NCBI GenBank assembly: GCA_002783405.1
Contig: PFGG01000080.1
Span: 124,001 to 188,000 of the forward strand
Direction: 5' to 3'
From: a bacterium (Candidatus Blackallbacteria) CG13_big_fil_rev_8_21_14_2_50_49_14
GTDB taxonomy: Bacteria > Cyanobacteriota > Sericytochromatia > UBA7694
Length of the DNA stretch: 64,000 nucleotides
Shown here: piece by piece, positions 60,226 to 63,855 of the stretch
Layout: each line of letters begins with the position of its first letter
How positions within the stretch are numbered: the first letter of the stretch is position 1
Made by a program: the position numbers and the translations under genes
The notes under the pieces: generated by a model
Databases searched by the model: none
Seen by the model: the letters and a program-made list of their open reading frames with translations, nothing else
Told to the model about the DNA's origin: nothing

Positions 60226-60983
60226 ATCTCCATGCCATCAAAGCCATTTACCAGTTTGAACTTGCCCGTTTTTTTCGTACCCTTTTTCAAAGCATTGCTT
60301 CGCCCGTGATCTCGACATCGCTCTATTTTATTGTTTTTGGTTCCGCGATTGGTTCGCGCATGACTGAAATCGATGGCACCAGCTATGGGGCCTTTATTGT
60401 GCCTGGCTTGATCATGCTCTCGGTTCTGACAGAAAGCATTTCCAATGCTTCGTTTGGGATTTATATGCCCAAGTATTCAGGCACGATTTATGAGATTTTA
60501 TCTGCGCCGATTTCGGCCTTTGAAATTGTAACGGGATATGTGGGTGCGGCAGCTACCAAATCGATGATTCTGGGCACGATTATTTTGGCGACGGCCCGCC
60601 TGTTTGTCAGTTTTTCAGTGCTTCACCCGTTTTGGATGCTGGCTTTTTTGATCCTGACTTCCCTGACCTTCAGTTTGTTTGGCTTTATTATTGGGGTCTG
60701 GGCCGATGGCTTTGAAAAATTGCAAATTATTCCGATGATGATCATTACGCCCCTGACCTTTTTAGGTGGCAGTTTTTATTCGATTCATATGTTGCCGCCT
60801 TTTTGGCAAAAGCTGACGCTTTTTAATCCGATTGTCTATTTGGTCAGTGGTTTTCGCTGGAGTTTTTATGGCATTTCAGACGTGGGCGTGGGTCTGAGCT
60901 TGGGCATGACGGGTTTCTTTCTGGTGCTCTGCCTGTTTGCGGTCTGGCTGATTTTTAAAACCGGTTACAAGATTAAAAATTAA
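60222..60983 (+). CDS. ABC-2 type exporter permease
   Basis: 253 residues with six membrane helices. The N-terminal amphipathic helix ([19 protein letters not shown]) and the ABC-2 signature [22 protein letters not shown] followed by [21 protein letters not shown] and [20 protein letters not shown] are typical. It provides the channel for the overlapping ATPase. Its stop overlaps the convergent DUF1992 gene by 4 bases. Confidence 0.92.
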
Positions 60984-61309
60984 GGTCCGTTTTTACGTTT
61001 TTCCAGAGCGGCATGGTAACGGGCCCAGCCCAGATTGATTTTTGCCAAAAGCTCCTGGCGGCGCTCGCTTTCACTGAGGGGAATTTCCCGCACGAGGGCT
61101 TCCAGGGCTTTGAGGTCTTTGCGCAATTGCAGCTCTTCAGGCAAAACGCCGGCATTTTTGAGAATTTTATAGGCCATGCGTGATTCGGGCGGCACATCGC
61201 TATCTTCTTCCAGGTTCAGGGGTTGGCCTGCGCCGGGAAGATTTTCAAATTCTCCCCTGCGCAGGGCTTCTTGAATTTTTTGTTCGACAATTAAATCAAA
61301 ATTTCCCAT
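60980..61309 (-). CDS. DUF1992 protein (DnaJ-homologue subfamily C member 28-like)
   Basis: 109 residues. The conserved block [26 protein letters not shown] followed by [21 protein letters not shown] is the DUF1992 signature; I break it up here because of its length. No J-domain is present. Function is unknown in bacteria. It lies 4 bases after the HTH-FlhA fusion gene on the same strand, so it is probably co-transcribed with it. Confidence 0.9.
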
Positions 61310-61313
61310 GCCC

Positions 61314-62555
61314 TTATTTTAAATCCAATTCAGCAACCGATTCAAGCCAGTAGAGCCGGTCAATTTCTGCCGTCGAAATCACTTTCCAGGCACTGAAATT
61401 GCGGGCCAGGATTTCAAACAGGCTGCGTCTGAGATCGGGGGCGCAGAGCAGGATTTGGCTTTGGGCCACCTGCTCCAGTAATTTTTCCTGTAGGCTTCGC
61501 GCCAGCGCTTGAGTTTCGGGGCCTGGTTTTGCCTGGGCCTGGCGAAAAGCGTTTTCTGTTGTTTGAGAGAGGGTCAGCACTTTGAGTCTGCCCTGGGCAT
61601 CTGCCAGGCGGGCGCAAATGGAGCGGCTCAGGCCTTGCCTGACTTTTTCCCGCAATTCAGCTCCTTTTAGCCCCTGATCCAAACCGTCAGCCAGGCTTTC
61701 GCAGATCAAGGCCAGGGGGCGGATTGAAACCTGTTCTTCGAGCAGTTCTTTGAGAATGCGGGTGAATTGTCCAATCGTCAGTTTTCCTGGGGTGGGAGCA
61801 TCCAAACTCAGAAGTTCATCCAGAACCACAGGATGCGTTTTGCGCAGGTTTTCAAGCATGACAAAGACTTCTTCCCGCGAGAGAATTTCGTGTGCGAAGG
61901 CTTTGACCAAGCCTCCGAGATGTTGCAGCAAGAGTTCTGAGCCGTCCAGCCCTTCTGATTCGGATGAAACGGCGGCATAGCATTGGGGCAGACGTGCGAG
62001 TGGTTTTTCGTTTGCTTGGGGGGGTGCAGGCCTGAGTTGGTATCTTTGCTGCGGATTCAGCTGGCCTTCGGCAATGCTTGCGCCATGAACCAGGATACGG
62101 TAGCTGTCTCCTTTCAAATTCGCCTGGTCGTGAATTCTGATACCGGGCAGAATAAAGCCCAATTCTTGACTGATGGCCTGGCGTAAACTTTGCAGTTTGG
62201 CTAAAAACCCGCTGGCTTCCGCTTGTTCGCCCTCATTTTCAGGGGACAGGCTGTTTTGAATGGCTTGAGCCCATTCGGGGGAGAGTTCCAGGGCCAGGGG
62301 GGGAACCGAGAGGGTTGCGAGCAGGTCGGCGGGTCTTTGTCGGCGCGACTCGGCCTGGGCTTCGCTGTCGCGACGAACGCTATCGAGGTAGCTGAGCAGA
62401 TCCAAGCCTTTGATACGGTACTGACCGTGAATTTTAAAGGATTTCAGGCTATTGGCCTGAAGCAGACGTTGAACCGTGCGTAAACTGACACGCAGCAATT
62501 CGGCGACTTCTTCACTGTTATAGAGTTTTTCGGGAATGAGGGACAGACTTTGCAT
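61314..62555 (-). CDS. HTH-FlhA fusion: excisionase/MerR-like DNA-binding domain fused to the soluble FlhA export domain
   Basis: 413 residues, AGGAGA 8 bases before the ATG. Residues about 8-62 are a helix-turn-helix of the excisionase type (LYNSEEVAELLRVSLRTVQR, then the wing YRIKGLDLLSYL). After a linker, residues about 85-400 match the FlhA cytoplasmic domain: ELGFILPGIRIHDQANLKGD, YRILVHGASIAEGQL, AFAHEILSREEVFVMLENLR, GQFTRILKELLEEQVSIRPL and ILLCAPDLRRSLFEILARN. None of FlhA's eight membrane helices are present. FlhA's soluble part binds export chaperones and cargo; here it is inferred to sense them and act on DNA. It is divergent from fliPQR and followed by a DUF1992 gene. Confidence 0.85.
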   Translation of the reverse strand: MQSLSLIPEKLYNSEEVAELLRVSLRTVQRLLQANSLKSFKIHGQYRIKGLDLLSYLDSVRRDSEAQAESRRQRPADLLATLSVPPLALELSPEWAQAIQNSLSPENEGEQAEASGFLAKLQSLRQAISQELGFILPGIRIHDQANLKGDSYRILVHGASIAEGQLNPQQRYQLRPAPPQANEKPLARLPQCYAAVSSESEGLDGSELLLQHLGGLVKAFAHEILSREEVFVMLENLRKTHPVVLDELLSLDAPTPGKLTIGQFTRILKELLEEQVSIRPLALICESLADGLDQGLKGAELREKVRQGLSRSICARLADAQGRLKVLTLSQTTENAFRQAQAKPGPETQALARSLQEKLLEQVAQSQILLCAPDLRRSLFEILARNFSAWKVISTAEIDRLYWLESVAELDLK

Positions 62556-62614
62556 TGTATTTTCTCCTGGGTCGGAAACCTGTTGAGAGGCTTGGTTTCG
62601 CTAGACCTGATTTG

Positions 62615-62643
62615 AGTTTAAAGCGAAACGACAATCAGGTCAA
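62615..62643 (-). promoter_or_regulatory. Promoter of the HTH-FlhA fusion gene
   Basis: On the minus strand TTGACC and TAAACT are separated by 17 bases. The expected start of transcription is near 62604-62608, giving a leader of about 50 bases to the ATG at 62555. Two ACGACAA repeats fall in the spacer and at the -35, so binding there would block RNA polymerase. Confidence 0.55.
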
Positions 62644-62689
62644 CGACAATATTTTGTGATTTTAACGACAATGACGACATAAACGACAA
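62628..62689. promoter_or_regulatory. Array of five ACGACA(A/T) repeats, putative operator
   Basis: Copies begin at 62628, 62643, 62665, 62674 and 62683 (four ACGACAA, one ACGACAT), all in one orientation, with spacings of 15, 22, 9 and 9 bases. The array lies in the divergent gap between the HTH-FlhA gene and fliP and overlaps the former's promoter. Direct repeats of this kind are typical binding sites of a single-HTH regulator; the fusion protein is the natural candidate, but binding is inference. Confidence 0.65.
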
Positions 62690-62774: not shown

Positions 62775-62803
62775 TTGATATCCCCTTCGCACCCGGCTAC
62801 AAT
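62775..62803 (+). promoter_or_regulatory. Sigma-70-type promoter of fliPQR
   Basis: TTGATA (62775-62780), 17 bases, then TACAAT (62798-62803). The expected start of transcription falls at about 62810, which is the A of the likely fliP ATG, so the mRNA may have no leader. Confidence 0.65.
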
Positions 62804-62809
62804 GGGAGC

Positions 62810-63583
62810 ATGTTCCAGATTCAGCGTCGACTTTATTCGTTTTTTGCCCAAGCCGGAATTCTTTTTCTGAGCTTGTTTTTGGCTTGGCCCGTTCAGGCTC
62901 AGAACTTTGCCATTCCCCGGATTAATATTGGGGTGGAGCAGGCCCGCACGCCCGAAGAAATGGTCTTCAGTGTTCAGCTGCTCTTATTGTTTACGGTTTT
63001 GGCACTGGCGCCTACGATTTTGGTGATGATGACGCCCTTTACCCGGATTGTGATTGTTTTGGGTTTTCTGCGCCAGGCGCTGGGTACACAGCAGGCGCCC
63101 CCCAACCAGGTTTTGGTCGGGCTTGCCCTGTTTATGACCCTGTTTATTTCCATGCCCACTTTTCAAGAGGCCAATGACAAAGCGCTTCAACCCTTCTTGA
63201 AAAAGCAGATCAACCAAGAACAGGCTCTGGAAGCTGGCTTGGAGCCTTTTCGCAAATTCATGCTCAAGCAGGTTCGCCAGGCTGATCTTGAGCTTTATTT
63301 AAGTTTAGCGAAAGTAGACCGCCCCAAAACCCCTTCTGAAGTGCCAACCCATGTGCTGATTCCTGCTTTTATTACCAGTGAACTCAAAACTGCTTTTTTG
63401 ATTGGATTTTTAGTCTATATCCCTTTTTTGATCATCGATATGGTGATTGCCAGTACCCTGATGTCGATGGGGATGATGATGCTGCCTCCCACAGTGGTGT
63501 CTTTGCCCTTTAAGCTGATCATGTTTGTGCTGATTGATGGCTGGAATATTCTCAGCCAAGCCATTATTGGGAGCTTTTCATGA
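62810..63583 (+). CDS. fliP: Flagellar export-gate protein FliP
   Basis: 257 residues from the ATG at 62810; an open frame extends to 62705 but would add an arginine-rich stretch not seen in FliP. A signal peptide (LFLSLFLAWPVQAQ) is followed by the FliP motifs VLALAPTILVMMTPFTRIVIVL, RQALGTQQAPPNQVLVGLAL and, at the end, FLIGFLVYIPFLIIDMVIAS with MGMMMLPPTVVSLPFKLI; I list them in pieces. FliP forms the ring of the type III export gate with FliQ and FliR. Its stop overlaps the fliQ start by 4 bases. Confidence 0.95.
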   Translation: MFQIQRRLYSFFAQAGILFLSLFLAWPVQAQNFAIPRINIGVEQARTPEEMVFSVQLLLLFTVLALAPTILVMMTPFTRIVIVLGFLRQALGTQQAPPNQVLVGLALFMTLFISMPTFQEANDKALQPFLKKQINQEQALEAGLEPFRKFMLKQVRQADLELYLSLAKVDRPKTPSEVPTHVLIPAFITSELKTAFLIGFLVYIPFLIIDMVIASTLMSMGMMMLPPTVVSLPFKLIMFVLIDGWNILSQAIIGSFS

Positions 63584-63855
63584 ACCCGGAAGCTTTGTTT
63601 TTACAGGTTTTGCAGCAGGGATTGGCCCTGACAGCCAAACTGCTGGCCCCGATGCTGCTGATCAGTTCTGCCGTGGGGATCATGGTCGGCCTTTTTCAGA
63701 CGGTGACACAGATCAACGAAATGACCCTGACCTTTATTCCCAAAATTATTGTGGTAGGGTTGGTTTTGCTGATTCTCGGGCCCTGGATGATGCATTTGCT
63801 CATGGATTTCTCCCATGATCTGATCTTGGGGATTCCTGCCGCCGTTAAGTTCTGA
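63580..63855 (+). CDS. fliQ: Flagellar export-gate protein FliQ
   Basis: 91 residues, the standard FliQ length. Two membrane helices (LLAPMLLISSAVGIMVGLFQ and PKIIVVGLVLLILGPWMM) around the conserved QTVTQINEMTLTFIPK loop. It inserts between FliP and FliR in the gate. It overlaps fliP by 4 bases and fliR starts one base after its stop. Confidence 0.96.
   Translation: MNPEALFLQVLQQGLALTAKLLAPMLLISSAVGIMVGLFQTVTQINEMTLTFIPKIIVVGLVLLILGPWMMHLLMDFSHDLILGIPAAVKF

Follow-up and report, generated by a model that had tools for sequence, protein, structure and literature searches.

A conserved fusion of an excisionase-type helix-turn-helix to the soluble domain of FlhA in Candidatus Blackallbacteria, with a direct-repeat array over its own promoter

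A gene of Candidatus Blackallbacteria (Sericytochromatia; GCA_002783405.1) in which a putative DNA-binding head is followed by the soluble half of FlhA, a flagellar export protein, is, as judged from its sequence, real and conserved, and a unique, operator-like array of direct repeats lies over its promoter. We consider it fairly probable that the product is an autoregulated, BldC/Xis-like direct-repeat-binding protein in which the cytoplasmic domain of FlhA (FlhA-C) has been repurposed as a partner module. The gene lies in the window, by which we mean the whole stretch of DNA analysed (64,000 nt; PFGG01000080.1, positions 124,001-188,000).

Architecture and conservation of the fusion gene

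The gene and its two domains are placed in the window as follows:

61314-62555, minus strand: HTH-FlhA-C fusion gene, an ORF of 413 aa with an orthologue at 65% identity
62379-62525, minus strand: HTH_17/excisionase-type winged helix-turn-helix (HTH), residues 11-59 (Pfam HTH_17, 1.4e-11; TIGR01764 above cut-off)
61317-62327, minus strand: FlhA-C-like domain, subdomains D1-D4, residues 77-413 (PF00771 positions 310-653, 6.9e-49)

A reading of the DNA made from its letters and ORF translations (hereafter the sequence-only reading) had seen an excisionase/MerR-like HTH at the N-terminus, and the head indeed scored above the curated cut-offs of both HTH_17 (44.9 bits against 27) and the NCBIfam excisionase domain TIGR01764 (32.6 bits against 28.8). 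The protein falls outside the BldC family proper, with 12.3 bits on NCBIfam HTH_BldC against a cut-off of 77; weak PDB sequence matches to the head include the BldC structure 6ama (E = 0.49). An AF2 model of the HTH built from two sequences displayed a helix, a beta wing and a helix (pLDDT 78) and gave no significant match in Foldseek, and prediction for the full protein was of low confidence. The alignments were too shallow for structure prediction to confirm the HTH fold, and a search of viral contigs to deepen them returned nothing.

The same reading had followed the FlhA cytoplasmic domain through about 315 residues without membrane helices. PF00771 (FHIPEP) matched residues 64-399 (167 bits against a cut-off of 29) and spanned positions 310-653 of its 657, which is the cytoplasmic half only; TIGR01398 (FlhA, NCBIfam) matched residues 204-407, and solved FlhA-C structures were matched by sequence, the best being 3mix (2.8e-27). 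By profile and alignment D1-D4 are complete, while the eight-helix N-terminal membrane domain is absent, the profile match starting only at position 310, and no transmembrane segment was detected (0 hydropathy windows above 1.6, compared to 83 in the full FlhA of the same genome). A Shine-Dalgarno sequence, AGGAG, precedes the start codon at 62564-62568 and is kept in the orthologue.

A close-relative scan of 84,980 GTDB species, from which records of the window's own genome may be missing, returned a single further locus with the fusion, in the same genus (Candidatus Sericytochromatia MAG_89, JADMKE010000013.1), and among 18 genomes of the class the HTH was present only in the two fusion-bearing ones. 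Between the orthologues the HTH is identical at 49 of 51 positions (96%, residues 8-58), followed by D3 (77%, residues 223-300), D4 (67%), D1a (54%) and D2 (32%), and pN is 0.24 against a pS of 0.70, a synonymous divergence near saturation. Although it rests on one pair of species, this comparison indicates that purifying selection acts on the protein, and most strongly on the predicted DNA-binding head.

The source genome (5.65 Mb, 84 contigs) encodes two separate full-length FlhA proteins and two FliP proteins, and therefore two flagellar-type export gates; one full-length flhA clusters with fliF and other basal-body genes, and both fusion-bearing genomes keep complete export-gate genes. The presence of the cytoplasmic part alone could be read as the mark of a decayed flhA or an assembly chimera. 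This is ruled out by the two intact flhA genes elsewhere in the genome and by a continuous ORF in two independent assemblies with differing neighbours, and the low pN relative to pS also speaks against decay, so that the probability left to it is practically nil. With strong profile matches to both parts and a continuous gene in an independent MAG, the description given by the sequence-only reading is right in every checkable respect.

Promoter, repeat array and neighbouring genes

The region 5' of the fusion gene and the genes on either side contain the following features:

62615-62643, minus strand: sigma70-like promoter of the fusion gene, TTGACC-17-TAAACT (orthologue TTGACC-17-TAGACT)
62627-62634, minus strand: TTGTCGTT, repeat 1, in the -35/-10 spacer
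62642-62649, minus strand: TTGTCGTT, repeat 2, abutting or overlapping the -35, 15 bp from repeat 1 with conserved spacing
62664-62671, minus strand: TTGTCGTT, repeat 3 (orthologue TTGGCGTT)
62675-62680, minus strand: degenerate repeat ATGTCG (orthologue ATGACG), read from sequence and alignment
62682-62689, minus strand: TTGTCGTT, repeat 4 (orthologue TTGTCGCC)
62810-63583, plus strand: fliP, divergent neighbour, followed by fliQ (63580-63855), with fliR and flhB beyond
60980-61309, minus strand: DJC28_CD (DUF1992) gene, downstream, 4 nt after the fusion gene

Within 63 bp, TTGTCGTT occurs four times without mismatch, always on the same strand; when the intergenic region (254 bp) was shuffled 2000 times with its dinucleotides preserved, no octamer came up four times. 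This TTGTCG array overlaps the promoter hexamers, and its copies are spaced by 15, 22 and 18 bp (~8-10 bp around the degenerate copy). In the orthologue alignment the promoter, the 15-bp spaced pair and the outer copies line up and are for the most part kept despite different neighbouring genes, which assigns the array to the fusion gene rather than to fliP. In each genome, the sole strong match to a sequence model of the array was at the fusion's own promoter (E = 7e-24 and 5e-25; next match at least 0.16), and searches of both genomes for exact repeat pairs found no further array. With these two kinds of scan, which single, non-arrayed sites could escape, no flagellar promoter with a TTGTCG array was detected in either genome, and therefore no array-type flagellar regulon is visible. 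No RNA element of Rfam was found in the intergenic region. The unique and conserved array over the promoter makes autoregulation, and with it a transcriptional role for the fusion protein, likely, while another factor could be the one that binds it.

A strong promoter-like site, TTGATA-17-TACAAT, was also observed at 62775-62803, ending 6 nt before the ATG of fliP, which suggests that the fliP transcript may be leaderless or nearly so.

The gene is divergent from fliP-fliQ-fliR-flhB on the opposite strand, as the sequence-only reading had noted in calling this exactly the place where a feedback regulator would be useful, and the DUF1992 gene is probably co-transcribed with it in the source genome. 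The orthologue stands between rnhA and an FBPase-like gene, with no DUF1992 gene downstream, and fliP of the MAG_89 genome has another divergent neighbour; the sole other carrier known from the survey of relatives thus has no fliP adjacency, and linkage to flagellar genes is not conserved. Because both the fliP and the DUF1992 linkages are missing there, the positional case for a feedback regulator is weak.

The FlhA-C module, its lost dimple and its soluble relatives

Two subdomains differ sharply in how well they are kept:

61947-62057, minus strand: degenerate D2 subdomain, about residues 167-203, ~13 residues shorter than that of FlhA, with K184 and A187 in place of D456 and F459
61626-61883, minus strand: D3 subdomain, residues 225-310, well kept, with 44% identity to the flagellar FlhA of the same genome

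In FlhA, D2 together with D1 forms the dimple that receives export chaperones. The Salmonella dimple, a conserved site with D456, F459 and T490, is where the chaperones FlgN, FliS and FliT dock (PMC8166844). The corresponding residues (Salmonella numbering) are K184, A187 and Q211 in the fusion, Q211 lying just downstream of D2; the orthologue has K, E and R at these positions. D2 comprises 36 residues compared to 49-51 in FlhA and is only 11% identical to that of the genome's flagellar FlhA (39% between the two full-length FlhAs), whereas D3 reaches 44% (50% between the full-length proteins), the values for D3 and D1b being 44-45%. Of the 17 full-length FlhAs aligned, nearly all of which come from the same phylum, 16 retain the dimple (scored as D/E, F/Y and T/A/S); of the 16 soluble FlhA-C proteins, none does. 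By these comparisons the chaperone-reading part is lost from the fusion protein and the ring-contact part kept, the conservation of D3 being compatible with formation of a nonameric ring.

These results bear directly on the mechanism first proposed, in which FlhA-C senses export chaperones with their cargo and the HTH controls the export-gate genes fliPQR-flhB. The divergent arrangement with fliP and the position of the array ~90 bp upstream of the fliP promoter-like site agree with it, and in H. pylori FlhA-C is thought to relieve the inhibition of FliA by FlgM through direct contact (PMC3930126), which indicates that FlhA-C can touch regulators. Against it stand the replacement of all dimple residues in the most eroded and shortened subdomain, the missing fliP linkage in the orthologue's genome and the restriction of the array to the fusion's own promoter. 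Since the cargo-gripping spot of FlhA is lost, the fusion probably does not read the same export signals, and we regard this mechanism as highly improbable. The observations of the sequence-only reading were confirmed and its interpretation was partly supported: a soluble FlhA-C is joined to an HTH under strong selection, and transcription control is favoured by the array over the gene's own promoter, while export-signal reading is not supported.

The module could instead contact the export machine away from the dimple, through D3/D1 ring contacts, FliJ/FliH, FlhB-C or the FlhA ring, and report gate assembly. The identity of D3 and D1b to flagellar FlhA, near the 50% seen between full-length FlhAs, and the complete export-gate genes in both genomes fit such a role; in Campylobacter, moreover, FlgSR senses the export apparatus, whose assembly is a known transcriptional checkpoint (PMC7064773). 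Nevertheless, neither a conserved flagellar linkage nor a flagellar promoter with the array was found, and the conservation of D3 may merely be that of a fold, so this role seems somewhat unlikely.

The best pairwise matches of the fusion's FlhA-C part are to flagellar-cluster FlhA, from which it probably derives, although a tree gave it no firm position. Sequence comparison further indicates that soluble FlhA-C proteins have radiated in non-photosynthetic Cyanobacteriota. They are common in Sericytochromatia, where some adjoin CBS/polyA-polymerase, glycine-cleavage or ABC-transporter genes, some occur in tandem and some lack D4, and the tree, of weak resolution, needs about five changes of state for the soluble forms, the origins of which would be multiple or weakly resolved. 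Each of the 48 genomes sampled from one gut-type family (f9) carries one soluble FlhA-C of ~490-530 aa, a protein that appears to be undescribed, and 4 of the 48 a second of ~600 aa.

That soluble FlhA-C proteins adjoin such unrelated genes, bamA-ompH among them, and that none of the 16 keeps the dimple, would suit recruitment of the FlhA-C fold purely for oligomerisation or small-ligand binding, with no flagellar tie. Genomic context, however, does not give function, and the gene content of the fusion-bearing clade is that of flagellated organisms; we judge this recruitment rather less likely than not. A broader view, in which FlhA-C is a free sensory module, the fusion reporting export-gate state to DNA and the soluble FlhA-Cs acting as adaptors or decoys around type III export, is in our estimate unlikely.

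Several further arrangements were observed among these proteins. In two genomes read, the f9 protein (L040:3211-4689, L041:3505-4983) lies near ompH, bamA and a nucleoside phosphorylase gene, and at its N-terminus it bears a weak resemblance to DUF4177. At least four genomes (L044:5010-5420, own genome, C64; L084:4570-4908; L085:4671-4991; L086:4093-4461) have a lone D4 of ~106-136 aa directly 3' of a thiolase gene, and a similar one (L087:4443-4802) lies in a context other than thiolase. Two genomes of one family encode proteins of 588-593 aa with FlhA-C behind an uncharacterised N-terminal part (L034:3129-4910, L035:3626-5392), divergent from gcvT (plus gcvH in L034), with a similar protein in L036. 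In another two (L027:1018-6577, L028:3-4732), adjacent FlhA-like genes, one degenerate or without D2 and the other with a short hydrophobic N-terminus, are followed by a DHH/CBS/polyA-polymerase gene, and in the sister species (L026:1510-5294) a soluble FlhA-C gene immediately precedes the genes for the ATPase and permease of an ABC transporter. Separately, a flagellar-cluster FliF carries a C-terminal FliG middle domain (L046:12610-14538, 1.7e-10), a natural FliF-FliG fusion.

Proposed mechanism and comparison with known systems

In the reading that we prefer, an autoregulated direct-repeat binder, the fusion would be a one-component DNA-binding regulator. We infer that its own HTH_17 head binds the TTGTCG array, and this binding would repress, or at least set, expression of the fusion gene. 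The FlhA-C module may serve oligomerisation and/or partner binding through D1, D3 and D4 instead of the dimple; a bound partner would then alter DNA binding, and components of the export machine are natural candidates for this ligand.

A core part of the export gate has here been moved onto a predicted DNA-binding protein and held under selection, which offers a clean natural test of which FlhA-C surfaces work without chaperone docking and lets one ask whether a promoter can respond directly to the state of the export machine. The soluble FlhA-C family as a whole is unstudied and occurs in organisms relevant to the origin of Cyanobacteria and to animal guts.

Among the papers searched, none described an HTH-FlhA-C fusion or soluble FlhA proteins. 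Compared to FlhA itself, residues 64-399 align with the cytoplasmic domain over all four subdomains (C-terminal half of PF00771; 3A5I, 3MIX), whereas the membrane domain and the FlhA linker are absent, D2 is shortened, the three dimple residues are replaced and an HTH is added. The other soluble FlhA-Cs of non-photosynthetic Cyanobacteriota share solubility and the loss of the dimple with the fusion; they have no HTH, and their N-terminal parts and neighbours differ. Stand-alone FlhB-C homologues (FlhX/YlqH) show that the cytoplasmic domain of a gate protein can have a soluble paralogue, although they derive from FlhB rather than FlhA and lack a DNA-binding domain. BldC, a protein of the HTH_17 group, binds direct repeats head-to-tail (PMC5859096, PMC11963761), and the fusion resembles it and the excisionases of this group (Xis, RdfS) in its HTH_17 match and in a direct-repeat array at the likely target promoter. 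The 9-bp repeats of BldC and the 15-, 22- and 18-bp spacings of the array are alike in kind, not in spacing, and BldC and Xis are small stand-alone winged-HTH proteins, whereas the head of the fusion carries a 330-residue FlhA-C module. The H. pylori FlhA-C/FlgM contact and Campylobacter FlgSR both couple the export apparatus to transcription, as gate-assembly reporting by the fusion would; there, FlgM or a two-component system relays the action of full-length FlhA or of an assembled complex, and no FlhA-C is itself a DNA-binding protein, whereas in the fusion the FlhA-C module and the predicted DNA-binding head form a single polypeptide.
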